A DNA stretch of 64,000 nucleotides, taken from contig JANSXE010000003.1 of assembly GCA_024743195.1 (NCBI GenBank), positions 62,001 through 126,000 on the forward strand. The letters run 5' to 3'. The translations under genes and the position numbers were made by a program. Under the pieces are notes generated by a model. It worked only from the letters and a program-made list of their open reading frames with translations, did not search any database and was not told the origin of the DNA. Source of the DNA: Alphaproteobacteria bacterium. GTDB lineage: Bacteria; Pseudomonadota; Alphaproteobacteria; UBA8366; Aestuariispiraceae. This document shows, in pieces, positions 33,863-55,663 of the stretch (positions are counted from its first letter, which is position 1; the number at the start of each line of letters is the position of its first letter).

Positions 33863-33921
33863 TTGCAGCCCCCCGCGCGATGGGTCATAGTGCGCGCGCA
33901 AGGATTGTCCGACAAACGGAC
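33863..33921 (+). promoter_or_regulatory. promoter plus GntR-type operator before the acyl-CoA ligase
   Basis: A -35 candidate TTGCAG (33863-33868) and -10 CATAGT (33886-33891) are 17 bases apart. About 13 bases downstream lies TTGTCCGACAA (33905-33915), which fits the FadR-subfamily consensus TnGTnnnACnA. It is part of TGTCCGACAAACGGAC (33906-33921), found identically before the GntR gene at 40006-40021. Placement just after the predicted start of transcription suggests repression. The CDS starts at 33979. Confidence 0.65.
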
Positions 33922-35613: not shown

Positions 35614-35665
35614 GCCGCCGCTCCGCGTCCGACCGATCAAATAGTTGCTGAGGAGACGCCCGCCC

Positions 35666-36426
35666 ATGAGCGCGCCCGACATCTTCGACCTGACCGGCAA
35701 GACCGCCCTGGTGACCGGGGCGAGCCAGGGGCTCGGCGAGCGCTTCGCCGAGGTGCTGGCCCAGCGCGGGGCCGCCGTCTGCGTGGCCGCGCGCCAGACC
35801 AAGAAGCTCGAGAAGCTGAAGGCCCGGATCGAGAAGGCCGGCGGTCGGGCCCACGCCGTCGCGCTGGACGTGACGGCGCCGGAGGCGGTGGAGGCCGCGG
35901 TGGCGGAGGCCGAGGAGGCGCTCGGCCCGCTCGACATCCTGGTCAACAACGCCGGCGTCGCGGTCACCAACAACTTCCTCGACCAGACGATCGAGGAGTG
36001 GGATCAGGTGCTCGACACCAATCTGCGCGGCGCCTTCCTGGTGGCCCAGACCGTCGCCAAGCGCATGGCGGAGCGCGGCTCCGGCTCGATCATCAACATC
36101 GAATCCGTGCTTGGCTACGGCGTGATGAAGGGGCTTGCGCCCTATTGCGCCTCGAAGGGCGGGCTGGCGCAGCTCACCCGCGCGATGGCGGGCGAACTCG
36201 CGCGCTTCGGCGTGCGGGTCAACGGCGTCGCGCCCGGTTACATCGAGACCGACATCAACCGCGCCTTCTTCGCGACCGAGGCGGGCGACCGGCTGCGCAA
36301 GACGATTCCCTTCCGTCGCACCGGCGCGCCGGGGGAGCTGGACGGCGCGCTGCTGCTGCTCGCCTCCGACGCCGGCAGCTACATGTCCGGCGGGGTGATC
36401 ACGGTCGACGGCGGATTCCTGGTGCG

Positions 36427-36430
<4 letters not shown>
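35666..36430 (+). CDS. short-chain dehydrogenase/reductase (beta-oxidation context)
   Basis: A 254-residue classical SDR with TGASQGLG near residue 18, NNAG near 92, and the catalytic NIESVLGYGVMKGLAPYCASK segment (Ser, Tyr-xxx-Lys). Family members in such clusters oxidise hydroxyacyl-CoA or hydroxy acids; the substrate is not determined here. The ATG at 35666 follows GAGGAG. The stop overlaps the following acyl-CoA dehydrogenase start by 4 bp (ATGA), so the two proteins are probably made together. Confidence 0.9.
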
Positions 36431-38238
<1,808 letters not shown>

Positions 38239-38293: not shown

Positions 38294-39157
38294 ATGGATA
38301 TCAAGACAGTCGGCGTCGTCGGCGCCGGGATGATGGGCTCGGAGATCGCGCTGGTCTTCGCATTGGCCGGCGCGGACGTCGTGCTGGCGGATAAGGGCGC
38401 CGAAGCGCTGGAGCGCGCGCGATCGAAGCTGGCCGGCGTCCTGGAGAAAGGCGTCGCCAAGGGCGCCTACGATCAGGCCGCGGCGGACGAGACGCTGGCG
38501 CGCCTGACCTTCACCGAGGATCTGCAGACCTTCGCGGATCGCGACCTCGTCATCGAGGCGGTGTTCGAGGATGAGGGCGTGAAGGCCGACCTCTACCGCC
38601 GGCTGGAGCCGGTTCTGCCGGCGGACTGCCTGATCGCCAGCAACACCTCCTCGATCTCGATCTCCGTCCTGGCGAGCCATTGGCCGGAGGCTCGACGCGC
38701 GCGCTTCATGGGGCTGCATTTCTTCTCCCCCGTCAGCCGCATGAAGCTGGTGGAGGTGATCCCCGGCTTCGATACGGACCCGGAGGCGTTGGCGCGCGCG
38801 CGGGCCGCCTGCGAGGCGGCGGGCAAGGTCGCGGTCCCGGTCAAGGACGTCGTCGGCTTCGCCGTGAACCGGCTGCTGATGGCCTTCTTCATCGAGGCCA
38901 ACAAGCTGGTGGAGGAGGGCGTCGCGACGCCCGAGGACATCGACACGGCCTGCCGCCTGGGCCTCGGCCACCCTGTCGGACCCTTCAAGCTGTTGGACGA
39001 GGTGAGCAATCCGCTGGCGCTGCAGGTCATGGAGATCCTGCACGAGGCCTACGGCCCGCGGTTCCAGCCGCCGCTGCTGATGAAGCAGATGGTGGGCGCC
39101 GGCCGGCACGGCCGCAAGGCCGGCCGCGGCTGGTACGATTATCGGGAGGAGAGTTGA
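38294..39157 (+). CDS. 3-hydroxyacyl-CoA dehydrogenase
   Basis: A 287-residue NAD-dependent 3-hydroxyacyl-CoA dehydrogenase (HBDH/PaaH/FadB C-domain type). The Rossmann motif is VGVVGAGMMGSEIA, the catalytic His lies in GLHFFSPVSRMKLVEVIPG, and DVVGFAVNRLLMAFFIEANK opens the C-terminal dimerisation domain. It ends with HGRKAGRGWYDY, as in the family. It oxidises 3-hydroxyacyl-CoA to 3-oxoacyl-CoA. The GGGAG binding site at 38282-38286 can be sequestered by a hairpin. Four bases separate it from the enoyl-CoA hydratase gene. Confidence 0.93.
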   Translation: MDIKTVGVVGAGMMGSEIALVFALAGADVVLADKGAEALERARSKLAGVLEKGVAKGAYDQAAADETLARLTFTEDLQTFADRDLVIEAVFEDEGVKADLYRRLEPVLPADCLIASNTSSISISVLASHWPEARRARFMGLHFFSPVSRMKLVEVIPGFDTDPEALARARAACEAAGKVAVPVKDVVGFAVNRLLMAFFIEANKLVEEGVATPEDIDTACRLGLGHPVGPFKLLDEVSNPLALQVMEILHEAYGPRFQPPLLMKQMVGAGRHGRKAGRGWYDYREES

Positions 39158-39160: not shown

Positions 39161-39952
39161 ATGGACGGGTCCGATACGGTTCTGATCGCCAATGACGGCG
39201 CAGTGCGCACCCTGATCCTGAACCGCCCCGCGGTGATGAACGCCCTGAACGAGGCGATGGCGGATGCGCTGTTCGCCGCCGTCAGCGCCGCGGCCGACGA
39301 TCCGGCCGTGCGATGCGTCGTGCTGCGCGGCGCGGGCCGCGGCTTCTTCGCCGGCGGCGACGTGGCGGAATTCGTTCGTCATGGCGAGGATATCGGAGAT
39401 TTCGCCGGCGCGCTGATCGACCGCTACCATCCGACCATCGAACGGCTGCGGTCGATGGAGAAGCCGGCGCTCGCCGCGCTGCATGGGCCGGTGGCGGGGG
39501 CGGGGCTCAGCCTCGCCATGGCCGCCGATCTGGCGATCGCGGAGGAGGGGGCGGTCTTCTCGCTCGCCTACACGCTGATCGGCGCCTCGCCAGACGGCGG
39601 CTCCACCTATTTCCTGCCGCGCATCGTCGGTCAGCGGAAGGCGTTGGAAATCGCCCTGCTGTCCGACCGGTTCGACGCCGAGACTGCGCTGTCCCTCGGC
39701 CTGATCAACCGGGTGACGCCGGCCGACGCCTTCGAGGCGGAGGTCGGGGCCCTGGCTGCGCGCCTCGCGGCGGGGCCGACGAAGGCCTATGGGCGGGTCA
39801 AGCGGCTGATCGAGCGCTCGCTGGGCTCCGACCTTGCGGACCAGCTCGCCGCTGAGCGGGCGGCCTTCGTCGAGGGGGCCGCGACACGCGATTTCCGGGA
39901 AGGGATCGCCGCTTTCACAGGCAAGCGGAAGCCCGATTTCATGGGCGAATGA
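39161..39952 (+). CDS. enoyl-CoA hydratase/isomerase
   Basis: A 263-residue crotonase-family enzyme. RGFFAGGDVAEFVRHGEDIG and the oxyanion-hole segment PALAALHGPVAGAGLSLAMA are visible. At the second catalytic region the sequence reads IGASPDGGSTYFLPRIVG, where canonical hydratases have a Glu in GxxPEGG; Asp replaces it here, as in several isomerase-like members. It may therefore be an isomerase or a modified hydratase. Four bases after the 3-hydroxyacyl-CoA dehydrogenase gene. Confidence 0.88.
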   Translation: MDGSDTVLIANDGAVRTLILNRPAVMNALNEAMADALFAAVSAAADDPAVRCVVLRGAGRGFFAGGDVAEFVRHGEDIGDFAGALIDRYHPTIERLRSMEKPALAALHGPVAGAGLSLAMAADLAIAEEGAVFSLAYTLIGASPDGGSTYFLPRIVGQRKALEIALLSDRFDAETALSLGLINRVTPADAFEAEVGALAARLAAGPTKAYGRVKRLIERSLGSDLADQLAAERAAFVEGAATRDFREGIAAFTGKRKPDFMGE

Positions 39953-39970: not shown

Positions 39971-40021
39971 TTGACGCAAGCGGGAGCCGGCGCCTAAACT
40001 CCAACTGTCCGACAAACGGAC
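39971..40021 (+). promoter_or_regulatory. promoter plus GntR-type operator before the GntR gene
   Basis: A strong -35 TTGACG (39971-39976) and -10 TAAACT (39995-40000) lie 18 bases apart. The operator TGTCCGACAAACGGAC (40006-40021) starts at the predicted transcription start; CTGTCCGACAA within it is close to the FadR-subfamily consensus, and GTCCG-ACAAA-CGGAC is a perfect 5-bp inverted repeat. The identical 16 bases occur at 33906-33921. Autoregulation by the adjacent GntR protein is inferred. Confidence 0.7.
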
Positions 40022-40088
40022 TTTAACGCCACATGCGGGCGAACGACCCGGGGAACCGGGCGATGATGTGCAGGGAATGGATCGGCCG

Positions 40089-40934
40089 ATGACAGCGAAG
40101 AACGCCGCGCAGCGGCGCCGTGCAGAGCCGGCGCCGGCGGCCGTGACCGACGGTGAAGCCGTCGGTGAGGCCGGGCTCAACCTGCGCAAGCTGGCGGTGT
40201 CGCCGACCTATCGCGTGGTGGCCGAGACCATCGAACGCGAGATCATGGAAGGGCGCCTGTTGCCGGGCGACCGTCTGCCGTCCGAGACGGCGTTGGCCGA
40301 CCAGCTCGGCGTCAATCGCTCGACCGCGCGCGAGGGGCTTCGGCTCCTGGAGCAGACCGGCCTCGTCGTGCGCAAGTCGGGCCGACGCCTGCACGCCGCG
40401 ATCCCCGGGCACGAGGAGCTGAGCACCCGGGCGAGCCGCGCCCTCCTCTTGCAGAAGGTCACCTTCACCGATCTGCACCAGCTCCTGATGGTGCTGGAGC
40501 CGAGTGCGGCGGCGCTCGCCGCCAAGGCGATCTCCGAGGCGGACCTGAAGGCGTTGGAGGAGAACGTGGCCCGCACCGACCGCGCGGTCCAGGCGGGCGA
40601 GAGCGAGAGCGTGACCCAACTCGATCTCGAGTTCCACGACATCGTCGGCGCCGCGATCGGCAATCCCGCCTGGCTGTTGGCGCGGGAGCCGGCGGCGAAA
40701 CTGATGTTCCCGGCGGCCGCCCCGATGATCAACGCCCTGCCGCAGGCGTCCCGGCGTCTGGTCGAGGCGCACCGGCGCATCTTCGAGGCGCTGCGCGACG
40801 GCGACGCGTCGGAGGCCGAGCTCTGGATGCGCAAGCATGTGATCGACTTCAAACGCGGCTACGAATTGGCCGGCCTGTCGCTGGACCAGCCGGTCCGCTC
40901 GGATGCGACCTGGAAGAAGGAAGGACTGTCTTGA
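40089..40934 (+). CDS. GntR-family regulator, FadR/FCD type
   Basis: A 281-residue repressor-type regulator. An N-terminal winged helix (SETALADQLGVNRSTAREGL, RLLEQTGLV) precedes an all-helical FCD ligand domain whose metal-binding pattern is visible in QLDLEFHDIVGAAIGN and EAHRRIFEALRDGD, with a His in WMRKHVIDF. Such FCD domains bind carboxylic acids, often the substrate of the regulated pathway. Several in-frame starts exist (GTG 40068, ATG 40077, ATG 40089); 40089 is chosen for spacing from the purine-rich sequence. The stop overlaps the thiolase TTG start. Its likely operators are at 40006 and 33906. Confidence 0.9.
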   Translation: MTAKNAAQRRRAEPAPAAVTDGEAVGEAGLNLRKLAVSPTYRVVAETIEREIMEGRLLPGDRLPSETALADQLGVNRSTAREGLRLLEQTGLVVRKSGRRLHAAIPGHEELSTRASRALLLQKVTFTDLHQLLMVLEPSAAALAAKAISEADLKALEENVARTDRAVQAGESESVTQLDLEFHDIVGAAIGNPAWLLAREPAAKLMFPAAAPMINALPQASRRLVEAHRRIFEALRDGDASEAELWMRKHVIDFKRGYELAGLSLDQPVRSDATWKKEGLS

Positions 40935-42124
40935 GTACGCGGGAGATCTGTCTGGCGGGCGGCATGCGCACGCCGTTCGGCGACTACGGCAAATCGCTGC
41001 GCAACACGCGCATGGTCGATCTGGGAATCACCGCCGCCAAGGCCTGCATCGAGAAGGCCGGCATAGATCCGCAGACGCTCGATCACTCGGTCTGGGGCAA
41101 CGTCCTGCCGGTGGACCATGACGGCTTCTACGCCAGTCGCGCCGTCGCCCTCGGCGTCGGCATGCGTGAGGAGAGCTGCGCGCTCAATGTCAGCCGCGCC
41201 TGCGGCTCCGGCACCCAGGCGATCATCACCGCGGCCGAGCAAATTCTGAGCGGCCATGGCGAGCTGGCGCTGGCCGGCGGCGGCGAGAACTTCTCGCGCG
41301 GGCCCTATATGGACGTGAAATCGCGCTGGGGCGCGATCCGGGGCCCCAGCGTCATGGAGGACAGTCTGGATTGGGCCTATCGCGACCCGTTCAGCCGCGA
41401 GCTGATGGGCGAGACGGCGGAGAACCTGTCCGACGACTTCCAGTACACCCGCGAGCAGATGGACGAGTACGCGCTGATGAGCCAACAGCGCGCCGGCGCG
41501 GCCATCGAGAGCGGCTTCCTCGCCAAGCAGATCGCCCCGATCGAGGTGAAAGACGGCAAGAGCACCCGCATGATGGCGGTCGACGAGTTCCCGCGGCCGA
41601 CGGTCACGGCGGATAAGTTGGCCAAACTGAAGCCCGTGTTCCGCGAAGGCGGGCGCGTGACGCCCGGAAACTCCTCGGGCGTGACGGACGGCGCGGCGAT
41701 GGTGGTCGTCGGCGACCGGGCGGCCTTGGAGCGCCAGGGCGTTGCGCCCCGCGTCCGCTTGAAGGACTGGGCGATCGTCGGCGTGCCGCCGCGCATCATG
41801 GGCTGCGGTCCGGTGCCGGCGATCCGCGCGCTGTTGGAGCGGAACGACCTGACCCTCGGCGACATCGACTATTTCGAGATCAACGAGGCCTTCGCGGCGG
41901 TCAACCTGCACACCGAGCGACAACTGGGCGTCAGCCGCGAGACCACCAATCTCTATGGCGGCGGAATTTCGATCGGCCATCCGCCGGGCGCAACCGGCGC
42001 GCGGATGACGCTGGTTGCGATGCAGCATCTCGAGGATACGGATCAGCGTTGCGCCGTGGTCAGCATGTGCATGGGCGCAGGCCAGGGCATGGCGGTGCTG
42101 TTGGAGAACATCGGCCGCGCATAA
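40931..42124 (+). CDS. thiolase (acetyl-CoA acyltransferase)
   Basis: A 397-residue thiolase that cleaves 3-oxoacyl-CoA or condenses acyl-CoAs. The nucleophilic Cys91 lies in NVSRACGSGTQA, His350 in GGGISIGHPPGATGARM, and the second catalytic Cys380 in SMCMGAGQGMAVLLE. The usual GGAIALGHPLG text is altered (GGGISIGHPPG), but the catalytic residues are retained. The start is TTG at 40931, overlapping the GntR stop as TTGA, so it is coupled to the regulator. It would complete a beta-oxidation cycle with the dehydrogenase and hydratase genes upstream. Confidence 0.92.
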   Translation: MSTREICLAGGMRTPFGDYGKSLRNTRMVDLGITAAKACIEKAGIDPQTLDHSVWGNVLPVDHDGFYASRAVALGVGMREESCALNVSRACGSGTQAIITAAEQILSGHGELALAGGGENFSRGPYMDVKSRWGAIRGPSVMEDSLDWAYRDPFSRELMGETAENLSDDFQYTREQMDEYALMSQQRAGAAIESGFLAKQIAPIEVKDGKSTRMMAVDEFPRPTVTADKLAKLKPVFREGGRVTPGNSSGVTDGAAMVVVGDRAALERQGVAPRVRLKDWAIVGVPPRIMGCGPVPAIRALLERNDLTLGDIDYFEINEAFAAVNLHTERQLGVSRETTNLYGGGISIGHPPGATGARMTLVAMQHLEDTDQRCAVVSMCMGAGQGMAVLLENIGRA

Positions 42125-42191: not shown

Positions 42192-42234
42192 CGGGGCGAC
42201 GACGCCGGCGGATGGGTCCGCCGGGGCCGCCCCG
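42192..42234 (+). other. two-tier hairpin in the leader of the binding-protein gene
   Basis: An outer stem CGGGGCG (42192-42198) / CGCCCCG (42228-42234) encloses an inner perfect 8-bp stem CCGGCGGA (42205-42212) / TCCGCCGG (42217-42224) with a TGGG loop. The structure ends 8 bases before the AGGGAGGA ribosome binding site (42243-42250). No T-tract, so it looks like a stabilising leader structure rather than a terminator. The rest of 42125-42259 holds no gene. Confidence 0.6.
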
Positions 42235-42259
42235 ACCCAAAAAGGGAGGAAAGCAACTG

Positions 42260-43573
42260 ATGTCCGGTACCCCCCTCAAACAGGCCCTCAAAGGGCTGAT
42301 GGCGGGCGCGGCTCTGGCCGCGTTCGGCGTCGGCGCGGCGGGGCAGGCTTCGGCCGAAGAGACCTTCAAGATCGGCGTGGTGACGTTCCTGTCCGGTCAG
42401 GCGGCGGAAAGCTTCGGCGTTCCGGCCTGGGACGGCGGCCGTCTGCTGATCGAGAAGTTGAACGCCGGAGAGGTCCCGGCGCCGTACGACACGGTCGGCT
42501 TCGGCGGCATGAAGATCGAGGCGATTCCGATCGACGAGGCCGGCGGCGCCACCAAGCAGGTGCAGGAGTTCCGCAACCTGGTGCAGCGCGAGCAGGTCGA
42601 CGCGGTCGTCGGGTACGTCTCCTCCGGCGACTGCCTGGCGGTCGCGCCGGTTGCCGACGAGTTGAAGGCGCTGACCATCCTTTATGACTGCGGCACGCCG
42701 CGCATCTTCGAGGACGGCCAGTACGAGTACGCCTTCCGCACGGCCGCCCATGCGACGATGGACAATGTCTCGATCGCCCGCTACCTGCAGGCGCGCGGCG
42801 TCGAGATCGACTCCATCGCCGGGCTGAACCAGGACTACGCCTGGGGTCACGACAGCTGGCGCGATTTCACGGCTTCGATGGGCCAGCTCTATCCCGACGC
42901 CGACGTGGTGGCCGAGTTGTTCCCGGCCTTCGGCGCCGGCCAGTACGGCACCGAGATCTCGGCCCTGATGCGCGAGCGCGCCGACGTGGTGCACAGTTCG
43001 AACTGGGGCGGCGATCTGCAGTCCTTCATCCTGCAGTCGATGCCGCGCGGTCTGTTCCAGCGCAGCCAGGTTGTCTTCTCGGCCGGCGACCACGTGATCC
43101 CGGCCTTGGGCAACAACTTCCCCGAAGGCGTGATCCTGGGCGCCCGCGGCGCCTATGGTCTGATGTCGCCGGATACGCCGCTCAACAACTGGTGGTTCGA
43201 GACCTACCAGGAGCGCTACGGCGTGATCCCGGTGCAGGCGCCCTATCGCATGGCGCAGGCGCTGCTCGGCCTGAAGTCGGCGATCGAAAAGGCGATGGCG
43301 GCCAATGGCGGCGCTCGCCCGACGACGGACGAGATCCGCATGGCCATGAAGGGCCATGAGTGGGAGGCGCCCGGCGGCCTGATCCAGATGAAGCTGGGCA
43401 ACGGCCACCAGGCGATCCAGCCGACCGCCATCGGGACCACCGCCAAGGACTCGGACGGCAACATCACCGTTGTCGACATCGAGCGCTTCGCGGCGGAGTG
43501 CGTGAACCCGCCCGCGGGGCAGAACAGCGTCGATTGGATCAACGCCGGTTTCCCCGGCGCCCAGTGCGAGTGA
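42260..43573 (+). CDS. Liv-type (HAAT) ABC transporter substrate-binding protein
   Basis: A 437-residue periplasmic binding protein of the branched-chain amino acid/amide family. A signal peptide spans about 1-32 (ending QASAEE), followed by FKIGVVTFLSGQAAESFGVP and the bilobed Peripla_BP_6 fold. A Cys pair (GDCLAVAPV, LYDCGTP) and a C-terminal Cys are visible. The family binds amino acids, amides, urea or aromatic and fatty acids; the adjoining acyl-CoA genes favour an acid. AGGGAGGA at 42243-42250 supports ATG at 42260. Flanked by strong hairpins on both sides, which may raise its expression relative to the permease genes. Confidence 0.9.
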   Translation: MSGTPLKQALKGLMAGAALAAFGVGAAGQASAEETFKIGVVTFLSGQAAESFGVPAWDGGRLLIEKLNAGEVPAPYDTVGFGGMKIEAIPIDEAGGATKQVQEFRNLVQREQVDAVVGYVSSGDCLAVAPVADELKALTILYDCGTPRIFEDGQYEYAFRTAAHATMDNVSIARYLQARGVEIDSIAGLNQDYAWGHDSWRDFTASMGQLYPDADVVAELFPAFGAGQYGTEISALMRERADVVHSSNWGGDLQSFILQSMPRGLFQRSQVVFSAGDHVIPALGNNFPEGVILGARGAYGLMSPDTPLNNWWFETYQERYGVIPVQAPYRMAQALLGLKSAIEKAMAANGGARPTTDEIRMAMKGHEWEAPGGLIQMKLGNGHQAIQPTAIGTTAKDSDGNITVVDIERFAAECVNPPAGQNSVDWINAGFPGAQCE

Positions 43574-43609
43574 TCCTGGGCGACTGATCCGACCCGCCTG
43601 ACGGCGGAC

Positions 43610-43646: not shown

Positions 43647-43677
43647 GGCCGCCGGTCCCGGACGGACCGCGCCCTTG

Positions 43678-43716: not shown

Positions 43717-43740
43717 CGCCGATGGGGATGAGACCCAACC

Positions 43741-44637
43741 ATGTATGACGTCCTGACGATCCTGGTCGACGGCGTGGTCTACGCGTCGTGGCTTTTCATC
43801 GTGGCGCTGGGCCTGACGCTGATCTTCGGGGTGCTGCGCATCCTGAACATCGCGCATGGCAGCATGTACGCGATCGGCGCCTATGCGGCCGTTACGCTGG
43901 CGCCGTTGGCCCCTGCGCTCGGCTTGCCGCCGGTCTTCTCGCTGCTGGCGATGCTGATCGCGGCGCTGGCCGTCGCCATCGTGCTCGCGCCGCTCATGGA
44001 GCGCGGCTTGTTGCGGCTTTTCTACGGCCGCGACGAGGTGCTGATCCTGTTGATCACCTACGCCGTCTTCCTGATTCTGGAGGACGTCAGCAAGCTGATC
44101 TGGGGCGTCAATCCCTATTACCTGTTCGAACCGCGCAACCTGTTCGGCACGGTGGAGATCGGCGATCTCTTCTATGTCGGCTACGATCTGATGCTGATCG
44201 CGCTGGCGGCGGTCTGCGGCTTGGCCGTGTGGCTGGGCCTCAACAAGACCAAGGTCGGCAAGATCGTGCTGGCGGTCATCCACAATCCGGACGTCAGCGC
44301 CTGCATGGGCGTCAACATCGCGCGCATCTATCTGCTCGCCTTCTTCGTGGGCGTGTTCCTGGCGGCGCTCGCGGGCGCCTTCACCGCGCCGCTGATTTCG
44401 GTCCAGCCGGGCATCAGCGTCAGCGTCATCATCCTGAGCTTCGCGGTCGTCATCATCGGCGGGCTGGGCAGCATTCCGGGTGCGGCGATCGGGGCCGTGG
44501 TGGTCGGGATCGTGCGCGCCGCCGCCGTCTACGAACTGCCCGAGGCGGAGATCTTCATCGTCTATCTGGTGATGGCGATCGTCCTGGTCTTCCGTCCGGA
44601 GGGCCTGTTCCAACGCACCCAGGCGAGGAAGATCTAG
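43741..44637 (+). CDS. livH: Liv-type ABC transporter permease LivH
   Basis: A 298-residue inner-membrane permease of the LivH type, with about eight membrane segments and the family segments TLIFGVLRILNIAHGSMYAI (near 25) and ILSFAVVIIGGLGSIPGAAI near the C-terminus. It forms the translocation path with LivM. First permease gene after the binding-protein gene, separated by a 167-base structured gap. LivM follows after two bases. The symbol reflects family type, not a proven amino acid substrate. Confidence 0.92.
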   Translation: MYDVLTILVDGVVYASWLFIVALGLTLIFGVLRILNIAHGSMYAIGAYAAVTLAPLAPALGLPPVFSLLAMLIAALAVAIVLAPLMERGLLRLFYGRDEVLILLITYAVFLILEDVSKLIWGVNPYYLFEPRNLFGTVEIGDLFYVGYDLMLIALAAVCGLAVWLGLNKTKVGKIVLAVIHNPDVSACMGVNIARIYLLAFFVGVFLAALAGAFTAPLISVQPGISVSVIILSFAVVIIGGLGSIPGAAIGAVVVGIVRAAAVYELPEAEIFIVYLVMAIVLVFRPEGLFQRTQARKI

Positions 44638-44639
44638 CC

Positions 44640-45635
44640 ATGCACGCTTCGACGCGCCGGACCTATCTGTCCGGTCTGATCCTCGCCGCCGCGCTGTTGG
44701 TCGTGGGCTTCCTGCTCCCGGCGTGGCTTCTCTTCACCGTCACCAAGGCGATCGGCTACGGGCTGGTCGCGCTCGGCATCATCACGCTGATGCGCGGCGG
44801 GCTGGTGAGCTTCGGTCAGGGCCTCGTCTATTGCATCGGCGCCTACGCGGCCGGATTGCTGGCGACCCGCATCGGCGTGACCGAGGCGCCGTTGCTGCTG
44901 CTGGTCGGCATGGTCGCGTCCGGGCTCGTGGGCCTGCTGGTCGGGCCGCTGATCGCGCGCTATCGCGGCATCTTCTTCGCCATGCTGACGGTCGCGCTCT
45001 CGATGGTGCTTTACGGAATTCTGGTCAAGATGAACGCGATCGGCGGCTCCGACGGCTTCACCCTGCCGGAGCCCACCTTCTTCGGCTGGCAGCCGGACGT
45101 CGGGACGTCCGATCTGGCGCTCTACGTCACGGCGGTGATCGTCGCCTGCGCGGCGGCGACCGCCTGCCGGCTCTACTACGACTCGATGGCCGGCATGATG
45201 GCGCTGGCGGTGCGCGAGAACGAGCTTCGGGTCGAGTATCTCGGCTCCTCGGTCTTCAACGTCACCGTGCGCAACTTCGCGATCGCGGCCGCGCTCGGCG
45301 GGCTCGGCGGATCGCTCAACGCGATGGCGCTGGGCCATATCGACCCGCTGTTCAGCTTCTGGACGACGTCGGGCGAGTTCGTCTTCATTTCCGTCCTGGC
45401 AGGCCATCTGAGCGTGGGCGCGGTGTTCGTCTCGGCGCTGATCCTGGAGCTCGTGCGGTCCTTCTCCAACCGCTACTTCCCAGAGACCTGGCAGATGATC
45501 ATCGGCATCTTTCTGATCGCCACCATCATCTTCCTGCCGGGCGGCGTCGGATCGCTGTTCCAGCGGGTCCTGAAGCGCGGACCGGCCGCCGGCCGCGGCG
45601 AGAGCGCCGAGAACGAGGGGAGGGCTGCGCCGTGA
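44640..45635 (+). CDS. livM: Liv-type ABC transporter permease LivM
   Basis: A 331-residue inner-membrane permease of the LivM type, with about nine or ten membrane segments. LMRGGLVSFGQGLVYCIGAYAA and the cytoplasmic loop CRLYYDSMAGMMALAVRENE, followed by RVEYLGSSVFNV (EAA-like region), are typical. The C-terminal tail is charged. The ATG at 44640 lies two bases after the livH stop; the stop overlaps the livG GTG start (GTGA), so livH-M-G-F form one coupled operon. Confidence 0.92.
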   Translation: MHASTRRTYLSGLILAAALLVVGFLLPAWLLFTVTKAIGYGLVALGIITLMRGGLVSFGQGLVYCIGAYAAGLLATRIGVTEAPLLLLVGMVASGLVGLLVGPLIARYRGIFFAMLTVALSMVLYGILVKMNAIGGSDGFTLPEPTFFGWQPDVGTSDLALYVTAVIVACAAATACRLYYDSMAGMMALAVRENELRVEYLGSSVFNVTVRNFAIAAALGGLGGSLNAMALGHIDPLFSFWTTSGEFVFISVLAGHLSVGAVFVSALILELVRSFSNRYFPETWQMIIGIFLIATIIFLPGGVGSLFQRVLKRGPAAGRGESAENEGRAAP

Positions 45636-46429
45636 CGAGCGATACCGTCATCCTTGAGGCCCGGGACCTGCAGAAGCGCTTCGGCGCGGTGGTCGCGGCG
45701 CAGGACATCAACGTCAAGGTGGCCTCGGGCGAGAAGCTCTCGCTCATCGGCGCCAACGGGGCCGGCAAGACCACCTTCATGAACATGGTCACCGGCTATC
45801 TGAAGCCGGATTCGGGCGCCATCCTGCTGGAGGGCGGCGACGTCACCAAACTGAACCCGCGCCAGATCACGCAGCGCGGCGTGTGCCGGTCGTTCCAGAT
45901 CCCGCAGCTCTACGAGCCGATGACGGCGCTGGAGAATGTGATGGTGGCGATCGGCGCCTCCGGCCGGCGCTTCTCGTTCTTCCAGCCGGCCGACCTGAAC
46001 GAGACGGTCGAGCAGGCGCGCGCGATGCTGAAGCGCTTTGCGCTCGATCCGTACGCGCACCGGCCTGTCAGCGAATTGCCGGGCGGGGTGCGCAAGCTCC
46101 TCGACATCGCCATGGCGCTGGTGCGCAACCCGAAGATCCTGCTGCTCGACGAGCCGACCAGCGGCGTCAGCGTCGACGAGAAGTTCCCGCTGATGGAGAC
46201 GGTGATGGAGGCGTTGGCCGCCGAGGCCGTCACCGTCATCTTCGTGGAGCACGACATGGACATCGTGACCCGCTACTCCGACCGGGTGCTGGCCTTCTAT
46301 CAGGGGCAGGTGATCGCCGACGACGATCCGAGCGAGGTGCTGTCCGATCCGGCGGTGCAGAAATACGTCACCGGAACCGCGGGTCCCGCGACCGCTCCGG
46401 CCGGCGCGGAGAAGGAGGCCGAGGCATGA
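45632..46429 (+). CDS. livG: Liv-type ABC transporter ATPase LivG
   Basis: A 265-residue ABC ATPase of the LivG type. Walker A is IGANGAGKTTFMNMVTGYLK, Walker B is KILLLDEPTSGVS, and the H-loop is FVEHDMDIV. The signature segment reads SELPGGVRKLLDIAMAL: LPGG replaces LSGG and the usual following Gln is absent, an unusual variant. The C-terminal tail is Ala/Glu-rich. Start GTG at 45632 overlaps livM; the stop overlaps the livF ATG. Confidence 0.9.
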   Translation: MTSDTVILEARDLQKRFGAVVAAQDINVKVASGEKLSLIGANGAGKTTFMNMVTGYLKPDSGAILLEGGDVTKLNPRQITQRGVCRSFQIPQLYEPMTALENVMVAIGASGRRFSFFQPADLNETVEQARAMLKRFALDPYAHRPVSELPGGVRKLLDIAMALVRNPKILLLDEPTSGVSVDEKFPLMETVMEALAAEAVTVIFVEHDMDIVTRYSDRVLAFYQGQVIADDDPSEVLSDPAVQKYVTGTAGPATAPAGAEKEAEA

Positions 46430-47085
46430 TCCTTTCCGTCGAGAACGCTCATGTCCGCATCGGCGCGATCACGGCGCTGCGCGGCTTCTCGCTCTCCCTC
46501 GAAGCGGGCGAGATGGTCGGGCTCACCGGCCGCAACGGCGCCGGTAAGTCGACCTTCATGAAGACCGTCATGGGGCTGCATAAGCCGCGCGAGGGCTCCG
46601 TCGTCTTCGACGGCCAGGATTTGACCCGCACGCCGATCCACGAGCGCGCGGCGATGGGCATCGGCTACATGCCGGAGGATCGCGGCCTCATCCCCGAACT
46701 GTCGGTGGAGGAGAACATCCTGCTGCCGACCTGGGTGACGCCCAGCCTCCACGCGTCCAAGCGCCTGGAGGCGGTCTACGAAATCCTGCCGGAATTGCAG
46801 GAGATGCGGGACCGCAAGGCGCTGCTGCTCTCCGGCGGGCAGCAGAAGATGGCGGCCATGGCGCGCGCCTTGGCGGTCGGCACGCGGCTGCTGCTGCTGG
46901 ACGAGCCGTTCGAGGGCGTCGCTCCGGCGCTCAGCCAACGTCTGACGGAGGTCATCGCCGGGCTGCGCGGGCAGGGCATGGCGATGATCCTGAGCCAGTC
47001 CGAGCTGAACCATTCGTTCAACATCTTCGACCGCGACTTCGTCATCGAGCGCGGCGCCAATGTAGAGGCCGACGAAGCGGCATGA
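46426..47085 (+). CDS. livF: Liv-type ABC transporter ATPase LivF
   Basis: A 219-residue ABC ATPase of the LivF type. Walker A is LTGRNGAGKSTFMKTVMGL, the signature is LLSGGQQKMAAMARAL, and Walker B is RLLLLDEPFEGVAP. It lacks the usual Asp/His pair at the end of the H-loop: the sequence reads ILSQSELNHSF, where LivF proteins often have VEQN. Slightly shorter than typical LivF (about 235). Stop overlaps the APH-fold kinase start by 4 bp, tying the transporter to the kinase gene. Confidence 0.9.
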   Translation: MILSVENAHVRIGAITALRGFSLSLEAGEMVGLTGRNGAGKSTFMKTVMGLHKPREGSVVFDGQDLTRTPIHERAAMGIGYMPEDRGLIPELSVEENILLPTWVTPSLHASKRLEAVYEILPELQEMRDRKALLLSGGQQKMAAMARALAVGTRLLLLDEPFEGVAPALSQRLTEVIAGLRGQGMAMILSQSELNHSFNIFDRDFVIERGANVEADEAA

Positions 47086-48122
47086 GCGTGGACGCATCCG
47101 AACGACCCGCCAAGCTGGAGTTCGATCCCGACCGGCTTGGCGGCTATTTGAAGGGCCGATTGCCTGCCCTGGGCGAATTGAGCGCGGTGGAGCGCTTCTC
47201 CGGCGGTCAGTCCAACCCGACCTTCAAGCTGATCGGGACCGCGGGCGCGGCCGTCCTGCGCAAACAGCCGCCGGGGGAAATCCTGCCTTCGGCGCATGCG
47301 GTGGATCGCGAGTACCGCGTCATGGCGGCGCTCGCCGACACCGACGTGCCGGTGCCGACGATGCTGCATTTCTGCGAGGACCGCGAGATCGTCGGCACGC
47401 CCTTCTATGTGATGGAGTATCTGGAGGGGCGCGTGTTCCACGATTGCGCGCTGCCGGACCTGTCGCCGGACGAGCGCGCGGCCGTCTATGACGGCATGAA
47501 CAAGGTGATGGCCGCGCTGCATCTGATCGATCCCGACGCGGTCGGGCTCTCGGACTACGGCAAGCACGGCGGCTATTTCGAGCGCCAGATCCGCCGCTGG
47601 TCGAAGCAGTTGGAGCTTTCCAAGACCCGCGACGTCAGCGTGCATGAGCGGGTCCGCGATTGGCTGACCGCCAACAAGGCGGCCGACGACGAGACGCGCA
47701 TCTGCCACGGCGACTTCCGGCTCGGCAACCTGCTCTATGCGCCGGACCGGCCCGAACCGGTTGCGCTCTTGGATTGGGAATTGTCGACGCTGGGCCATCC
47801 GCTGGCCGACGTCGCCTTCAACTGCATCACCTATCATTCGACGCCGGAAGAGTATGGCGGCGTGATGGGTCTCCCGCTCGCGCGGATGGGCGTACCCGAC
47901 GAGGCGTCCTATCTCGCCCGCTACTACGAACGCACCGGCCGCGCCGACAAGGTGGAGACCTTTCATCTGGCCTTTTCGCTGTGGCGCTTCGCGGTGATCT
48001 TCGAGGGGATTTCGGCCCGCGCGAAGTCCGGCAACGCGGCGGCGGAGAATGCGGAGAAGGTCGGCGAACTGAGCCTCGCCTTCGCGCAGCGCGCGGCCGA
48101 TCTGATCGACGCGACCGGCTGA
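47082..48122 (+). CDS. APH-fold phosphotransferase (ACAD10/11-kinase-like)
   Basis: A 346-residue aminoglycoside-phosphotransferase-fold kinase. The catalytic loop ICHGDFRLGNLLYAP and the metal-binding VALLDWELSTLGHPLADVAF are intact, as is the N-terminal nucleotide region (RFSGGQSNPTFKL, LRKQPPG). This subgroup matches the kinase half of animal ACAD10/ACAD11 and LvaA of the Pseudomonas levulinate pathway, which phosphorylate 4-hydroxyacyl-CoA; an antibiotic-modifying role is unlikely. It overlaps livF (ATGA) and is followed, after 102 bases without another gene, by an ACAD10/11-type dehydrogenase. Confidence 0.85.
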   Translation: MSVDASERPAKLEFDPDRLGGYLKGRLPALGELSAVERFSGGQSNPTFKLIGTAGAAVLRKQPPGEILPSAHAVDREYRVMAALADTDVPVPTMLHFCEDREIVGTPFYVMEYLEGRVFHDCALPDLSPDERAAVYDGMNKVMAALHLIDPDAVGLSDYGKHGGYFERQIRRWSKQLELSKTRDVSVHERVRDWLTANKAADDETRICHGDFRLGNLLYAPDRPEPVALLDWELSTLGHPLADVAFNCITYHSTPEEYGGVMGLPLARMGVPDEASYLARYYERTGRADKVETFHLAFSLWRFAVIFEGISARAKSGNAAAENAEKVGELSLAFAQRAADLIDATG

Positions 48123-48224
48123 GGACAAGCCGGCGCGACCGGGGAGAAGAGCGCTCCGAGGGGCGCCGCGCCGCGCGCGGCCCCCATCACAGGACGAACT
48201 GGTTTCGAAGAGGAACGACGCGAG

Positions 48225-49490
48225 ATGGATTTCGGCTATTCCCCCAAGGTCGAGGAGCTGCGCGGCCGCGTGCAGCGCTTCATGGACGACTACATCGTGC
48301 CGGCCAACCCCGAATGGATTCGCGAGACGGAGAACGGCGTCTACCCGCCCGCCATCGTCGAGGCGCTGAAGGAGAAGGCGAAGGAGGAGGGCCTCTGGAA
48401 CCTGTTCCTGCCCGGTCTGAAGGACGACGAGCCCGGCACGCGGCTGACCAATCTGGAATACGCGCCGCTGGCCGAGATCATGGGCCGGATCTTCTGGGCG
48501 TCGGAGGTCTTCAACTGCAACGCGCCGGACACGGGCAATATGGAGCTCCTGCATCTGTTCGCTTCCGAGCAGCAGCATGAGGAGTATCTCAAGCCGCTGC
48601 TGAACGGCGAGTGCCGCTCCAGCTTCTCGATGACGGAGCCGGATGTCGCTTCGTCCGACGCCACCAACATCGAGACCACCATCCTGCGCGACGGCGACGA
48701 CTATGTGATCAACGGCCGCAAGTGGTTCATCACGGGCGCCGCCGATCCGCGCTGCAAGTTCACCATCGTGCTCGGCGTGTCCGATCCGGGTCCGGACGCC
48801 GACCCGCACAACAAACACTCCATGGTCATCGTGCCGATGAACGCGCCGGGCCTGACCGTGGTGCGCAACCCGGCGGTCATGCATCACGTGGCGCCGGAAG
48901 GGCACTGCGAGCTCAAGTTCGAGAATGTGCGCGTGCCCAAGGAGAACCTGCTGCATGAGGAGGGCAAGGGCTTCATGCTGGCGCAGGCGCGCCTGGGGCC
49001 GGGCCGCATCCATCACTGCATGCGCTCCATCGGCCAGTGCGAACTGGCCCTTGAGATGGCCTGCGAGCGGGCGCTGGAGCGCAAGGCCTTCGGCAAGCAT
49101 CTGGCCGATCACGGGCAGGTCGCGGAATGGATCGCGCTGTCGCGCATGGAGATCGATCAGGCCCGGCTGATGGTGCTGCAGGCCGCCTGGAAGATCGATC
49201 AATACGGCAACAAGGCGGCGCGCACCGACGTCTCGGCCATCAAAGTCGTCGTGCCCCGCCTTCAGACGACCGTGCTCGACCGGGCGATGCAGGTCTTCGG
49301 GGCCGCCGGCCTGACGCCGGACACGCCGCTCAGCTTCCTGTGGACCTGGGGCCGCGCGCTGCGCTTCATCGACGGGCCGGACGAGGTGCATATCCGCTCC
49401 GTCGCCCGGCGCGAATTGAAGGAGGCCAAGGAAAAGCGCGGCCGCACGCTGCCCTACATGACCACGCCAGACATGCTGCACGGGCGGTGA
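48225..49490 (+). CDS. acyl-CoA dehydrogenase, ACAD10/11-like
   Basis: A 421-residue flavin acyl-CoA dehydrogenase. SFSMTEPDVASSDATNIETT is the conserved substrate/FAD motif, HCMRSIGQCELALEMACERA is in the C-terminal helical domain, and IDGPDEVHIRSVARREL is the ACAD10/11-type active-site region in place of the YEGT motif. In the levulinate-type pathway such enzymes act on 4-phosphoacyl-CoA made by the neighbouring kinase. Its pairing with the APH-fold gene reproduces as two proteins what animal ACAD10/11 carry as one. Confidence 0.9.
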   Translation: MDFGYSPKVEELRGRVQRFMDDYIVPANPEWIRETENGVYPPAIVEALKEKAKEEGLWNLFLPGLKDDEPGTRLTNLEYAPLAEIMGRIFWASEVFNCNAPDTGNMELLHLFASEQQHEEYLKPLLNGECRSSFSMTEPDVASSDATNIETTILRDGDDYVINGRKWFITGAADPRCKFTIVLGVSDPGPDADPHNKHSMVIVPMNAPGLTVVRNPAVMHHVAPEGHCELKFENVRVPKENLLHEEGKGFMLAQARLGPGRIHHCMRSIGQCELALEMACERALERKAFGKHLADHGQVAEWIALSRMEIDQARLMVLQAAWKIDQYGNKAARTDVSAIKVVVPRLQTTVLDRAMQVFGAAGLTPDTPLSFLWTWGRALRFIDGPDEVHIRSVARRELKEAKEKRGRTLPYMTTPDMLHGR

Positions 49491-49500
49491 GGGCGCGGGC

Positions 49501-51090
49501 GTGACGGCGGCGGAGGACCCCCCGCGCATCCGGCGCGAGGCGCATTTCGGCGGGCGCGTCGTCGCCTGCTTCGCGGAGCGGGCGGCGACGGCCGACGCGA
49601 TGCTGCGCGCCGCCGCGGCGGAGAATCCGTCCGGCGATGCGGTGGTGGACGGCGCGCTGCGGCTCAGCCACGCGGAGCTGGACGCCGCCGCAACGCGCCT
49701 CGCCGCCGGCTTCGCCGCGCAGGGGTTGAAGCCGGGGGAGCGCCTGGCGCTGCTCGTCGGCAATGAGTGGCGCTTCGTGCTGACGCTGCTTGCGGCGATC
49801 CGGGCGGGGTTGATCGTGGTTCCGGTCAGCACCCGCTCGCAGGCGCCGGAGCTCGCCTACATTCTGGACGACTGCGGCGCGGCCGGCCTCGTCTATGGCG
49901 AGGCGTACGCCGGGATTCTGCCGACCCTCGACGCGGCGCCCGACCTGCGGGTCCGCCTCGCCGCGCAGGGCGAGGCCTTCGCGGCGCTGGCCGAGACCGA
50001 CCCCGCGGCCTTCGTTCCGCCGCCGCTGGAGGAGGAGGGGACGGCCGTCATCCTCTACACCTCCGGCACGACGGGCCAGCCGAAGGGGGCGATGCTGACC
50101 CATCTCAACATCGTCCATTCCTGCAAGCATTTCGAGACCGCCTTCGACCTGAGCGCGGCGGACCGCAGCCTGCTGGCCGTGCCGGCGACGCATGTGACGG
50201 GGCTCGTCGCGATCCTCTTCGCCGTCCTCTCCGTCGGGGGCGCGGCGCTGATCCTGCCGAAGTTCGAGGTGGAGGCCTTCCTCGATCTCGCCGCGCGCGA
50301 GCGGCTGACCTACACCGTCATGGTGCCGGCCATGTACAATCTCTGCCTGATCCGGGCGGAGCTTTCGGACTACGACCTCTCCGCCTGGCGGATCGGCGGC
50401 TTCGGCGGCGCGCCGATGCCGGAGGCGACGATCGCGGCCCTGGCCGGGAAGCTGCCCGGGCTGCATCTGTGCAACGCCTACGGCGCGACGGAGACGACCT
50501 CGCCGACGACCATCACGCCGCCGGACCGGTCCGAACGGCCGGACAGCGTGGGCCGCGTCGTCGCCTGCGGCGACGTGCGCATCATGGATTCCGACGGGCG
50601 CGAGGTTCCGCCGGGCGAGCCGGGCGAGGTCTGGATCGCCGGCCCTATGGTGGTTCCCGGCTATTGGAACAAGCCGGACAAGACGGCGGAGAGCTTCGTC
50701 GCCGGCTATTGGCGCTCGGGCGACGTCGGCTCGATGGACGCGGACGGCTGGCTCAGCGTCTTCGACCGGTTGAAGGACATGATCAACCGTGGCGGCTACA
50801 AGATCTATTCGGCGGAGGTGGAGAACGTGCTCTCCCACCATCCGGCCGTCGCCGAGGCCGCGGTGGTGCCCCAGGCCGATCCGGTGCTGGGGGAGCGGGT
50901 GCACGCCTTCGTCCACCCGAAGCCGGGCGCGGCCGCCGACGCGGCCGCGCTCAAGGCGTTCTGCGCCGAGCGGCTGTCCGACTACAAGGTCCCGGACGGG
51001 TTCACGCTGACCGACGAGCCGCTGCCGCGCAACGCCAACGGCAAGCTGCAGAAGCGCGCGCTGCGCGAGCGGGTCGCCCCGCATGGCTGA
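49501..51090 (+). CDS. AMP-dependent acyl-CoA synthetase (second)
   Basis: A 529-residue ANL-superfamily acyl-CoA ligase. The P-loop is ILYTSGTTGQPKGAM (about 184-198), the A5 motif is NAYGATETTSPT, the A8 region is SVFDRLKDMINRGGYKIYSA, and the A10 Lys is in RNANGKLQKRALRE. It differs clearly from the ligase at 33979, so two different acids or chain lengths may be handled. Start is GTG at 49501, 10 bases after the dehydrogenase stop. The stop lies 8 bases inside the PaaI-like gene. Confidence 0.92.
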   Translation: MTAAEDPPRIRREAHFGGRVVACFAERAATADAMLRAAAAENPSGDAVVDGALRLSHAELDAAATRLAAGFAAQGLKPGERLALLVGNEWRFVLTLLAAIRAGLIVVPVSTRSQAPELAYILDDCGAAGLVYGEAYAGILPTLDAAPDLRVRLAAQGEAFAALAETDPAAFVPPPLEEEGTAVILYTSGTTGQPKGAMLTHLNIVHSCKHFETAFDLSAADRSLLAVPATHVTGLVAILFAVLSVGGAALILPKFEVEAFLDLAARERLTYTVMVPAMYNLCLIRAELSDYDLSAWRIGGFGGAPMPEATIAALAGKLPGLHLCNAYGATETTSPTTITPPDRSERPDSVGRVVACGDVRIMDSDGREVPPGEPGEVWIAGPMVVPGYWNKPDKTAESFVAGYWRSGDVGSMDADGWLSVFDRLKDMINRGGYKIYSAEVENVLSHHPAVAEAAVVPQADPVLGERVHAFVHPKPGAAADAAALKAFCAERLSDYKVPDGFTLTDEPLPRNANGKLQKRALRERVAPHG

Positions 51091-51514
51091 GGCCGCGCTC
51101 GCCGGGTTGACGCCGGCCGTGGAGCAGCGCGTCGCCGGCGTGCTCGAGGTCCCGCTGCACCGCTTCCTCGGCTTCGAAGCGACGGCGATCGGCGCGGGGG
51201 CCGCCGCGGGCCGCTTTAGGGTGGGCGAGGCGGCGCGCAGCAATATCGGCATGTTGCATGGCGGCGTGCTCTACAGCCTGCTGGACGCGACCAGCTATCT
51301 GGCGCTGGCGTCGGATCTGGCGGCGGGGACCACCGCCTCGACCGTGGACGTCAGCTTCTCGATGCTGCGCCCGGTCGCGGCCGGGGCGACGGTGGAGATG
51401 ACGGCGCGGCTCGACCGGCTTGGCCGGAGCCTCGCCTTCCTGCAGGCGGAAGCCCGCGTCGAGGGAAAGCTCGTCGCCAAGGCGCAACTCACCAAGGCCG
51501 TCGTGACGCTCTGA
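51083..51514 (+). CDS. PaaI-type hotdog thioesterase
   Basis: A 143-residue hotdog-fold thioesterase of the PaaI family, which hydrolyses acyl- or aroyl-CoA, often to free CoA trapped in dead-end intermediates. GMLHGGVLYSLLDATSYLAL contains the conserved HGG and the catalytic acidic residue (Asp in LLDA), and VDVSFSMLRPVAAGATVEMT is the following strand pair. It overlaps the preceding ligase gene by 8 bases and is coupled to it. Confidence 0.88.
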   Translation: MAEAALAGLTPAVEQRVAGVLEVPLHRFLGFEATAIGAGAAAGRFRVGEAARSNIGMLHGGVLYSLLDATSYLALASDLAAGTTASTVDVSFSMLRPVAAGATVEMTARLDRLGRSLAFLQAEARVEGKLVAKAQLTKAVVTL

Positions 51515-51552
51515 CGCGGCGGTCGAGACAGTCGAGAAAGAGGAGACGCCCG

Positions 51553-52542
51553 ATGCGCGCGCTGCTGTGCAAGGATTATGGCGGAATCGACGCCCTGGTG
51601 CTGGAGGAGGCGGCGCCCCCCGCCCTCAAGCCCGGCGAGGTGCGCCTCAAGGTGCAGGCCTGCGGGGTGAATTTCCCCGACACGCTGATCGTCGAGGGCA
51701 AGTACCAGTTCAAGCCCGAGCCGCCCTTCAGCCCCGGCGGGGAGGTCGCCGGGATCGTGACCGAACTGGGCGAGGGGGTGGAGGAGGCTGGAGGCGTCGC
51801 CGTCGGCGACCCGGTCATCGCGGTGACCATCTGGGGCGGCTTCGCGGAGGAGATCGCGGTTCCCGCCGCCCAACTGCTGCCCTATCCGGCCGCGATGGAC
51901 CCGGCGGTCGCGGCCGGATTCGCCATGACCTACGGGACGGCCATGCATGCGCTGACCCAGCGCGCGCGGCTCGACGAGGGGGAGACGCTCCTCGTCCTGG
52001 GCGCGGCCGGCGGCGTCGGCCTCGCGGCGGTGGAGATCGGCAAACGCCTCGGCGCGCGCGTGATCGCGGCGGCCAGCACGCCGGAGAAGCTGGAGGTCGC
52101 CCGACGCGCCGGCGCGGACGATGGGATCGATTACAGCGCCCGGCCGCTCAAGGACGCGGTGAAGGACTTGACCGGCGGCCGCGGCGCCGATGTGGTCTTC
52201 GACCCCGTGGGCGGCGACCTGACCGAGCAGGCGCTGCGCGCCACCGGTTGGGGCGGCCGGCATCTGATCGTCGGCTTCGCAGCCGGCGCGATCCCGAAGA
52301 TCCCGGCCAATCTGACGCTGCTCAAGGGCTGTTCGGTGGTCGGCGTCTTCTGGGGCGATTTCGTGAAGCGCGAGCCGGCGGCCAATCGGGCGAATTTCGA
52401 CACCCTGTTCCGCTGGGTCGCGGAGGGTGCGCTGAAGCCGCTGGTGAGCGAGCGCTTCGCGCTCGCCGACGCGGGCCAAGCGCTGCACCGCCTCGCGGAC
52501 CGCAAGGCCGTCGGCAAGCTGGTGGTCGACCTGTCGCGGTGA
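51553..52542 (+). CDS. NAD(P)H:quinone oxidoreductase-like MDR protein
   Basis: A 329-residue zinc-free medium-chain dehydrogenase/reductase of the quinone oxidoreductase/enoyl reductase group. The N-terminal GroES-like domain contains CGVNFPDTLIVEGKY and PFSPGGEVAG; the nucleotide-binding motif is LVLGAAGGVGLAAVEIGK near residue 140. No zinc ligands are seen. Family members reduce quinones, enones or enoyl-CoAs. It is 38 bases after the thioesterase gene and may be the last gene of the catabolic island. Confidence 0.88.
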   Translation: MRALLCKDYGGIDALVLEEAAPPALKPGEVRLKVQACGVNFPDTLIVEGKYQFKPEPPFSPGGEVAGIVTELGEGVEEAGGVAVGDPVIAVTIWGGFAEEIAVPAAQLLPYPAAMDPAVAAGFAMTYGTAMHALTQRARLDEGETLLVLGAAGGVGLAAVEIGKRLGARVIAAASTPEKLEVARRAGADDGIDYSARPLKDAVKDLTGGRGADVVFDPVGGDLTEQALRATGWGGRHLIVGFAAGAIPKIPANLTLLKGCSVVGVFWGDFVKREPAANRANFDTLFRWVAEGALKPLVSERFALADAGQALHRLADRKAVGKLVVDLSR

Positions 52543-55611: not shown

Positions 55612-55663
55612 CCGTCCACCCCTCAACCCGTCAACCGTTTCCTCGTACGCCGACCGCGTCTCC

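Follow-up and report, generated by a model that had tools for sequence, protein, structure and literature searches.

The conversion of 4-hydroxyacyl-CoA by a kinase and a dedicated acyl-CoA dehydrogenase (ACAD) has been described for LvaA and LvaC of the Pseudomonas levulinate (lva) pathway, for mammalian ACAD10 and ACAD11, and for two separate proteins from Burkholderia pseudomallei. Here we describe a version of this system in a 64,000-nucleotide stretch from an Alphaproteobacteria bacterium (family Aestuariispiraceae; contig JANSXE010000003.1, positions 62,001 to 126,000), hereafter the window. It consists of 17 genes, all on one strand (33979-52542), which place an ACAD10/11-type kinase and an ACAD10/11-type ACAD alongside a Liv-type ABC importer, beta-oxidation enzymes and a GntR-family regulator. 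Gene content and order, the residues of kinase and ACAD, and an operator-like site were conserved in relatives, and the site was associated with the GntR. With a probability of roughly three in four, the island as a whole acts on an imported 4-hydroxy, and probably also 4-oxo, carboxylic acid. The importer, the GntR and the candidate operator of this version are new; the enzyme chemistry is already published.

In mammals the kinase and ACAD are fused, and ACAD10 also carries a HAD domain, whereas the island encodes two separate proteins in an inducible-looking import setting; the catalytic and phosphate-binding residues are the same. As in the island, the B. pseudomallei kinase and ACAD (Q63VL0/Q63VL1) are separate, a likeness drawn from their published description. 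In vitro, this pair replaced the ACAD10 domains on 4-hydroxyhexanoyl-CoA, and the accessible text of the report makes no mention of LvaB (PMC11342911). The Burkholderia loci that we examined combine the kinase with a histidine phosphatase or a short-chain dehydrogenase/reductase (SDR) and an ACAD, with no GntR or operator-like site.

Pseudomonas lva has the same enzyme classes and proposed step order as the island (accessible parts of PMC6692424, PMC12440821 and PMC11342911). However, lva includes LvaB, whereas the largest gap between genes in the island is 167 bp, which leaves no room for a 12-kDa LvaB gene; none was seen, with no sequence search for LvaB made. A preliminary description of this DNA had also noted that LvaB was not seen, and this stands without being an obstacle, given that LvaB-free systems exist. 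According to the accessible part of PMC6692424, the levulinate cluster of Pseudomonas citronellolis LA18T lacks LvaB and, like the island, holds an importer, ligase, kinase, ACAD and SDR; unlike the island, it has an ActP importer, an LvaR-type regulator and a histidine-phosphatase-family gene. The lva system is further set apart by its sigma54-type LvaR, in contrast to a GntR/FCD regulator with TTGTC[C/G]GACAA as candidate operator, and by its ActP importer (LvaF/LvaG) in place of a Liv-type ABC system, and only the island has its own hydratase, 3-hydroxyacyl-CoA dehydrogenase, thiolase and FadE, as well as two ligases. With no room for LvaB and with another regulator and importer, the island is not an lva operon proper.

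A plain operon for levulinate (4-oxopentanoate), the equivalent of lva in Alphaproteobacteria with levulinate as main substrate, would account for the enzyme set (ligase, SDR, kinase, ACAD, importer), and LvaB-free levulinate clusters are on record in the part of PMC6692424 cited above. We nevertheless consider this unlikely, given the different regulator and importer types and because the extra FadE, 3-hydroxyacyl-CoA dehydrogenase, hydratase and thiolase exceed the needs of a C5 acid, which suggests more than one turn of beta-oxidation. Calling the pathway uncharacterised, as the preliminary description did, needs correction: the chemistry is published for LvaA/LvaC, ACAD10/11 and the Burkholderia pair, and only the present version is uncharacterised. 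Our literature search, with most subscription journals outside its coverage, gave no account of a version controlled by GntR and linked to an ABC or TRAP importer.

Kinase and ACAD of the ACAD10/11 type

The two enzymes at the centre of the island are encoded as follows.

47082..48122 (+): ACAD10/11-type APH kinase, 346 aa; Pfam APH 167 bits; D211, N216, R168 and D231 present
48225..49490 (+): ACAD10/11-type ACAD, 421 aa; N, M and C domains; R256, R261, H264, R267 and D383 present

The kinase has an APH-family fold, and its nearest relatives are ACAD10/11-type kinases; the best solved ones were 3dxp (332 bits) and mouse ACAD11 (8v3v/8v3u, 210/207 bits). For the ACAD, the best solved relatives were ACAD11 (8v3u/8v3v, 400/398 bits), 2wbi (398) and 4hr3 (388); after the approximately 400 bits of this ACAD11 group, ordinary ACADs scored at most 129 bits. 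Kinase residues D211 and N216 correspond to mouse D220 and N225, the catalytic Asp and Asn, and R168 to the CoA-side Arg R176. Mouse R86 of the ACAD11 paper was left unscored, its placement in the PDB chain numbering being uncertain; PDB chain numbers run one lower than those of PMC12440821. In the ACAD, R256, H264 and R267 match the phosphate-binding R626, H634 and R637 of the mouse enzyme (HCMR motif), and D383 matches its catalytic D753, an Asp instead of Glu, where the mutated position of 8v3v also aligns. The accessible part of PMC12440821 reports that R626, H634 and R637 are unique to ACAD10/11 and LvaC and bind the 4-phosphate, that Asp753 takes the place of the usual base in mouse ACAD11, and that mutating R626, H634 and R637 ablated mouse ACAD11 activity.

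We counted residue patterns over distinct matches; for the ACAD, window copies were excluded and a boundary of 34% identity to the window ACAD was set. The kinase pattern D-N-R-D was kept in 118/118 matches. The ACAD pattern R-R-H-R-D was present in 105 of the 106 matches with at least 34% identity, the remaining one ending before the Asp, and in 0/13 below that boundary. Since kinases and ACADs of this kind were the starting point of the locus sample, these counts show consistency of the class, with the 13 lower matches as internal contrast. On the sequence features tested, the two proteins are members of the LvaA, LvaC and ACAD10-11 types. Their family, their residues and the published activity of the separate bacterial pair (accessible text of PMC11342911) make it highly probable that they turn 4-hydroxyacyl-CoA into 2-enoyl-CoA.

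Below, G000 denotes the window's own genome, G001 a congener (locus L035) and L070 a locus from another family. A scan of genome contigs with a 3-row kinase alignment kept the best 80 loci, which makes the named loci a nearest-kinase sample and no census; scanning the contigs with the single kinase sequence as query gave no match. A second, divergent ACAD lineage was seen near the kinase or GntR (L094, L096, L100, L101, L108, L111, L122, L132, L135, L138, L140, L152, L154, L156, L163, L243, L246, L247, L255, L256 and others). Its members are 34-39% identical to the window's ACAD and keep all phosphate-pocket residues, most with DGADEVH instead of DGPDEVH; they may handle a different hydroxyacyl-CoA. 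In a quick tree, which carried long-branch warnings and left out the divergent ACADs beside GntR in L243, L246, L247, L255 and L256, the ACADs of the GntR loci (window, L035, L081, L127 and L047) fell into one 13-row clade (SH-aLRT 97).

Island layout and proposed pathway

The remaining elements of the island, with candidate operator copies in place, are listed here.

33905..33921 (+): operator copy 1, TTGTCCGACAAACGGAC; 57 bp before the ATG of ligase 2; identical 17-mer at the equivalent congener promoter (L035:1610)
33979..35613 (+): acyl-CoA ligase 2, 544 aa, PRK08162-type acyl-CoA synthetase; NF006020 820 bits (cut-off 677)
35645..36430 (+): SDR; PF13561 209 bits; 75% identity to the congener copy; TTG as listed start, a later one being possible
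36427..38238 (+): ordinary acyl-CoA dehydrogenase, FadE/DmdC type, 603 aa; PF12806 C-terminal domain; without HCMR motif
38294..39157 (+): 3-hydroxyacyl-CoA dehydrogenase
39161..39952 (+): enoyl-CoA hydratase/isomerase
40005..40021 (+): operator copy 2, CTGTCCGACAAACGGAC (1 mismatch); 46 bp before the GntR gene; matched exactly in the congener (L035:7736)
40068..40934 (+): GntR/FCD-family regulator; 4-bp overlap with the thiolase start
40931..42124 (+): acetyl-CoA acyltransferase (thiolase, BktB-like); TIGR01930 386 bits (cut-off 240.55)
42212..43573 (+): periplasmic substrate-binding protein, Peripla_BP_6 (Liv/HAAT type); orthologues 83% (L035) and 65% (L070)
43741..44637 (+): LivH-like permease
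44640..45635 (+): LivM-like permease, 331 aa; ATG at 44640
45632..46429 (+): LivG-like ATPase
46426..47085 (+): LivF-like ATPase; 4-bp overlap with the kinase start
49501..51090 (+): acyl-CoA ligase 1, AMP-forming, 529 aa; AMP-binding ligase match
51083..51514 (+): hotdog-fold thioesterase (PaaI-like superfamily)
51553..52542 (+): PIG3/quinone-oxidoreductase-like (QOR) MDR enzyme; QOR also beside kinase-ACAD in L047, L081 and L127

In the pathway that we propose, the Liv-type ABC system would import the acid, ligase 1, ligase 2 or both would form its CoA ester, and the SDR, a candidate LvaD-like 4-oxoacyl-CoA reductase whose best solved relatives are generic, would reduce a 4-oxo group if one is present. 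By analogy with published homologues, the kinase would phosphorylate the 4-hydroxyl and the HCMR-type ACAD would eliminate the phosphate to give 2-enoyl-CoA. Hydratase, 3-hydroxyacyl-CoA dehydrogenase and thiolase would then finish the beta-oxidation round, with FadE taking later rounds; the thioesterase may release trapped CoA, and the QOR-like enzyme possibly reduces an enoyl group. The FCD-type GntR would control both transcription units through TTGTC[C/G]GACAA and, in the genus, also a polyhydroxyalkanoate (PHA) depolymerase.

Neighbouring genes overlap by 4 bp at SDR-FadE, GntR-thiolase, LivM-LivG, LivG-LivF and LivF-kinase, where the kinase ATG overlaps the LivF stop. This last overlap, together with a gap of only 10 bp between ACAD and ligase 1 and an order kept in L035 and L070, shows that the grouping is not due to chance. 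A GC-rich inverted repeat lies between kinase and ACAD (48161-48185); the congener's kinase-ACAD gap is only 40 bp. Two ways of reading the substrate were rejected: both ligases match broad acyl-CoA ligase families, and the AlphaFold model of the binding protein was poor (4-row alignment, mean pLDDT 51).

The preliminary description had placed a kinase, a dehydrogenase and a ligase together at 47082-51090, and these proved to be three open, complete and adjacent genes, with the ACAD10/11-type assignments borne out by solved relatives and conserved residues. The importer and beta-oxidation genes that it had put in the same island are present as a complete set, conserved in the congener. Its proposal of 4-hydroxyacid catabolism via phosphoacyl-CoA thus keeps the backing of enzyme types, residues and island context, leaving aside the label corrected above. 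The genes that it named were right; it had missed the SDR, the thioesterase, the role of the second ligase, and the regulator and operator.

Beyond the island lie a tRNA-Pro (52629) and, at 53194-57280 (-), a gene for a sarcosine-oxidase/GcvT-like FAD fusion protein. A MttB-like methyltransferase gene at 57460-58380 (+) is open without in-frame stop (trimeth_pyl 334 bits, cut-off 525). A LysR-type gene adjoins this pair, and the genes at 53194-58380 probably form a unit for the non-pyrrolysine demethylation of methylamine or betaine.

The GntR regulator and its candidate operator

Comparing intergenic regions of the window with those of the congener revealed the 17-mer listed above as operator copy 1. 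The window holds it exactly at 33905 and with one mismatch at 40005 (2 seen versus 0.08 expected), and L035 holds it twice, exactly, before ligase 2 and before GntR as in the window. With up to 2 mismatches, G000 had 3 sites genome-wide (reversed control, 0) and G001 had 5 (control, 1). Both island promoters share the conserved core TTGTC[C/G]GACAA.

We compared the occurrence of this core with that of GntR across 112 kinase/ACAD loci, mostly of 10-29 kb (L035-L050 and L070-L165); 106 of them contain the kinase (104 distinct), and six hold only an ACAD or flank. A perfect TTGTC[C/G]GACAA was found in 5/6 loci with a GntR relative versus 0/106 others. In the sixth GntR locus, L047, the FCD gene is preceded by GTGTCCGACAA at a distance of 115 bp, and in L081 and L127 the sites lie 68-92 bp ahead of the first gene of each unit.

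Among the 385 Alphaproteobacteria genomes of our class sample, 19, from 13 genera, encode a GntR relative (E<=1e-45). The core with any middle base, TTGTCNGACAA, was present in 13 of 15 further GntR loci, two inside predicted frames with uncertain starts. In ten of the 19 genomes (6/13 genera), the stretch around GntR includes a kinase and/or HCMR-type ACAD: both in G000, G394, G276, G176, G357 and G418, the kinase only in G075, G203 and G300, and the ACAD only in G258. The ACADs of G276, G176, G357, G418 and G258 belong to the 36-38% lineage and keep R-R-H-R-D. At the level of sequence, then, the site lies upstream of the regulator's own gene and of target genes and is kept with the regulator. 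The island looks like a regulon under the FCD-type GntR, which would bind the putative TTGTC[C/G]GACAA operator.

The third G000 site (G000:C29:17936, L174) and one G001 site (G001:C15:54660, L175) precede phaZ, which encodes a PHA depolymerase, by approximately 200 bp and 140 bp, respectively. The identity of phaZ is supported by TIGR01849 matches of 540 (G000) and 556 bits (G001; cut-off 301), and both genomes have a PHA synthase N-domain match above cut-off. G000 and G001 each contain three exact copies of the 14-mer TGTCCGACAAACGG, at the ligase 2, GntR and phaZ promoters only; across 27 other relatives there were 4 exact copies, in or at predicted genes unrelated to the island. Seven phaZ loci examined in other lineages had no copy of the any-middle-base core, suggesting that the phaZ link is genus-specific on present evidence. 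More speculatively, and with less than even odds, PHA-type hydroxy acids (4-hydroxyvalerate, 4-hydroxybutyrate and longer, from the cell or its neighbours) may be the true substrates, and GntR may couple uptake and phosphate-dependent breakdown of 4-hydroxyalkanoates to the mobilisation of stored PHA, with phaZ in its regulon. No hydroxyalkanoate regulon of this kind was described in the literature covered. The same regulator type would then serve with ABC or TRAP importers and with two anciently separate HCMR-type ACAD lineages across Alphaproteobacteria.

Distribution and competing explanations

In its own genome, the window's ACAD is the only one of 13 matches to the ACAD query that is of the ACAD10/11 type (next best, 31% identity), and its kinase is the single match. 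Across the class sample, the kinase was detected in 93/385 genomes (E<=1e-90). The ACAD (E<=1e-120) was present in 28/79 relatives including G000, and in 3/14 genomes of the family. In the congener G001, the full set of 17 genes is present in unchanged order (ACAD 91%, SDR 75% identical), and G225, from another family, keeps the order binding protein-LivHMGF-kinase-ACAD-ligase at 55-72% identity, without GntR. Related arrangements are hydratase-thiolase-dehydrogenase-binding protein-kinase-ACAD-QOR-ligase-GntR in G394, binding protein-kinase-ACAD-QOR-MaoC-type hydratase-ligase-GntR in Azospirillum agricola (L127), and FCD-GntR, kinase, ACAD and QOR on the Salipiger plasmid pPABY1. In G075, G203 and G300, all of one genus, a hydratase gene is divergent from kinase-DctP-DctM-DctQ-GntR, with a TRAP system replacing the ABC importer. 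The kinase thus stays with importer genes of ABC type (L035, L070), with a binding protein (L081, L127) or with TRAP genes (L082/L083/L257). Of the loci that cover 6 kb to either side of the kinase (n = 76), 56/76 had an ACAD of at least 33% identity, 29/76 a ligase and 41/76 an SDR.

Two further features of these loci were seen. L117 (Comamonadaceae) has Liv genes, ligase, QOR, kinase and two hydratases, with no HCMR-type ACAD match within 21 kb, which indicates that the kinase can accompany the importer set in the absence of its customary ACAD partner. A histidine-phosphatase-family gene, resembling the one in the P. citronellolis levulinate cluster, lies at most 6 kb from the kinase in 13/76 loci (L044, L045, L046 and ten others); the window island has no named gene of this family.

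Several observations weigh against assigning the whole island to an imported 4-hydroxy acid under GntR control. In the 76 kinase-centred loci, Liv genes were found in 7 and TRAP genes in 6, the Liv assignments in L082 and L083 being a different kind of ABC system, so that, outside the GntR group, few kinases have an importer beside them. L070 retains importer-kinase-ACAD-ligase, yet has no GntR or operator site; palindromes were seen in its promoter region, where the operator was not found. Excluding L035, the discovery locus, reduces the association of core and GntR to 4/5 versus 0/106, and L082 and L083, both in the GntR-locus count, are one genus. In 9/19 GntR genomes, the fetched stretch has no kinase or HCMR-type ACAD. 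In one of the GntR loci, L244 of G387, neither kinase nor ACAD adjoins GntR-binding protein-LivHMGF-ligase (50-75% identity), and this genome has a kinase elsewhere; importer and ligase may therefore have a wider cargo. The GntR stretch of G317, which belongs to the genus of G394, lacks both the site and the kinase. The 11-mer core also occurs near unrelated genes (a different FCD/GntR, TRAP binding proteins, gluconolactonase-like and MFS genes), and other FCD regulators probably recognise it as well. In G423, an Azospirillum genome, the pattern had 3 matches and its reversed control 9. Finally, the solved relatives of the binding protein are only remote (best E 4e-15), so its ligand cannot be read from them.

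Some of these points would suit a different division of labour, in which the kinase-ACAD pair clears endogenous 4-hydroxyacyl-CoAs from lipid peroxidation as housekeeping and the importer carries something else, for example an amino acid. Mammalian ACAD10/11 act in this way (accessible part of PMC12440821), kinase-ACAD pairs without a nearby importer are common, and G387 has its GntR-importer-ligase set without the kinase. However, the kinase is translationally coupled to LivF and kept with an importer in the ABC, binding-protein and TRAP loci named above, and an ACAD in 3 of 14 family genomes is not a housekeeping pattern, which makes this explanation improbable. That the kinase is a resistance-type phosphotransferase beside an ordinary fatty acyl-CoA dehydrogenase by accident is scarcely credible: the kinase belongs to the APH superfamily, but its NCBIfam APH(3') match is weak (31 bits, cut-off 205) and its best relatives are ACAD11-type, the ACAD carries the HCMR motif and an Asp in place of the Glu, and the two lie within 6 kb of each other in 56 of the 76 loci.

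Import and breakdown of a 4-hydroxy acid by the whole island would equip the bacterial ACAD10/11 branch with an importer of its own, together with a candidate regulator and a defined candidate operator. In our sample, the R-R-H-R-D pattern separates phosphate-handling from ordinary ACADs even at 34-39% identity, which aids the correction of annotations. The candidate operator predicts regulon members such as phaZ, and the question of which 4-hydroxy acids bacteria process by this chemistry becomes directly testable.

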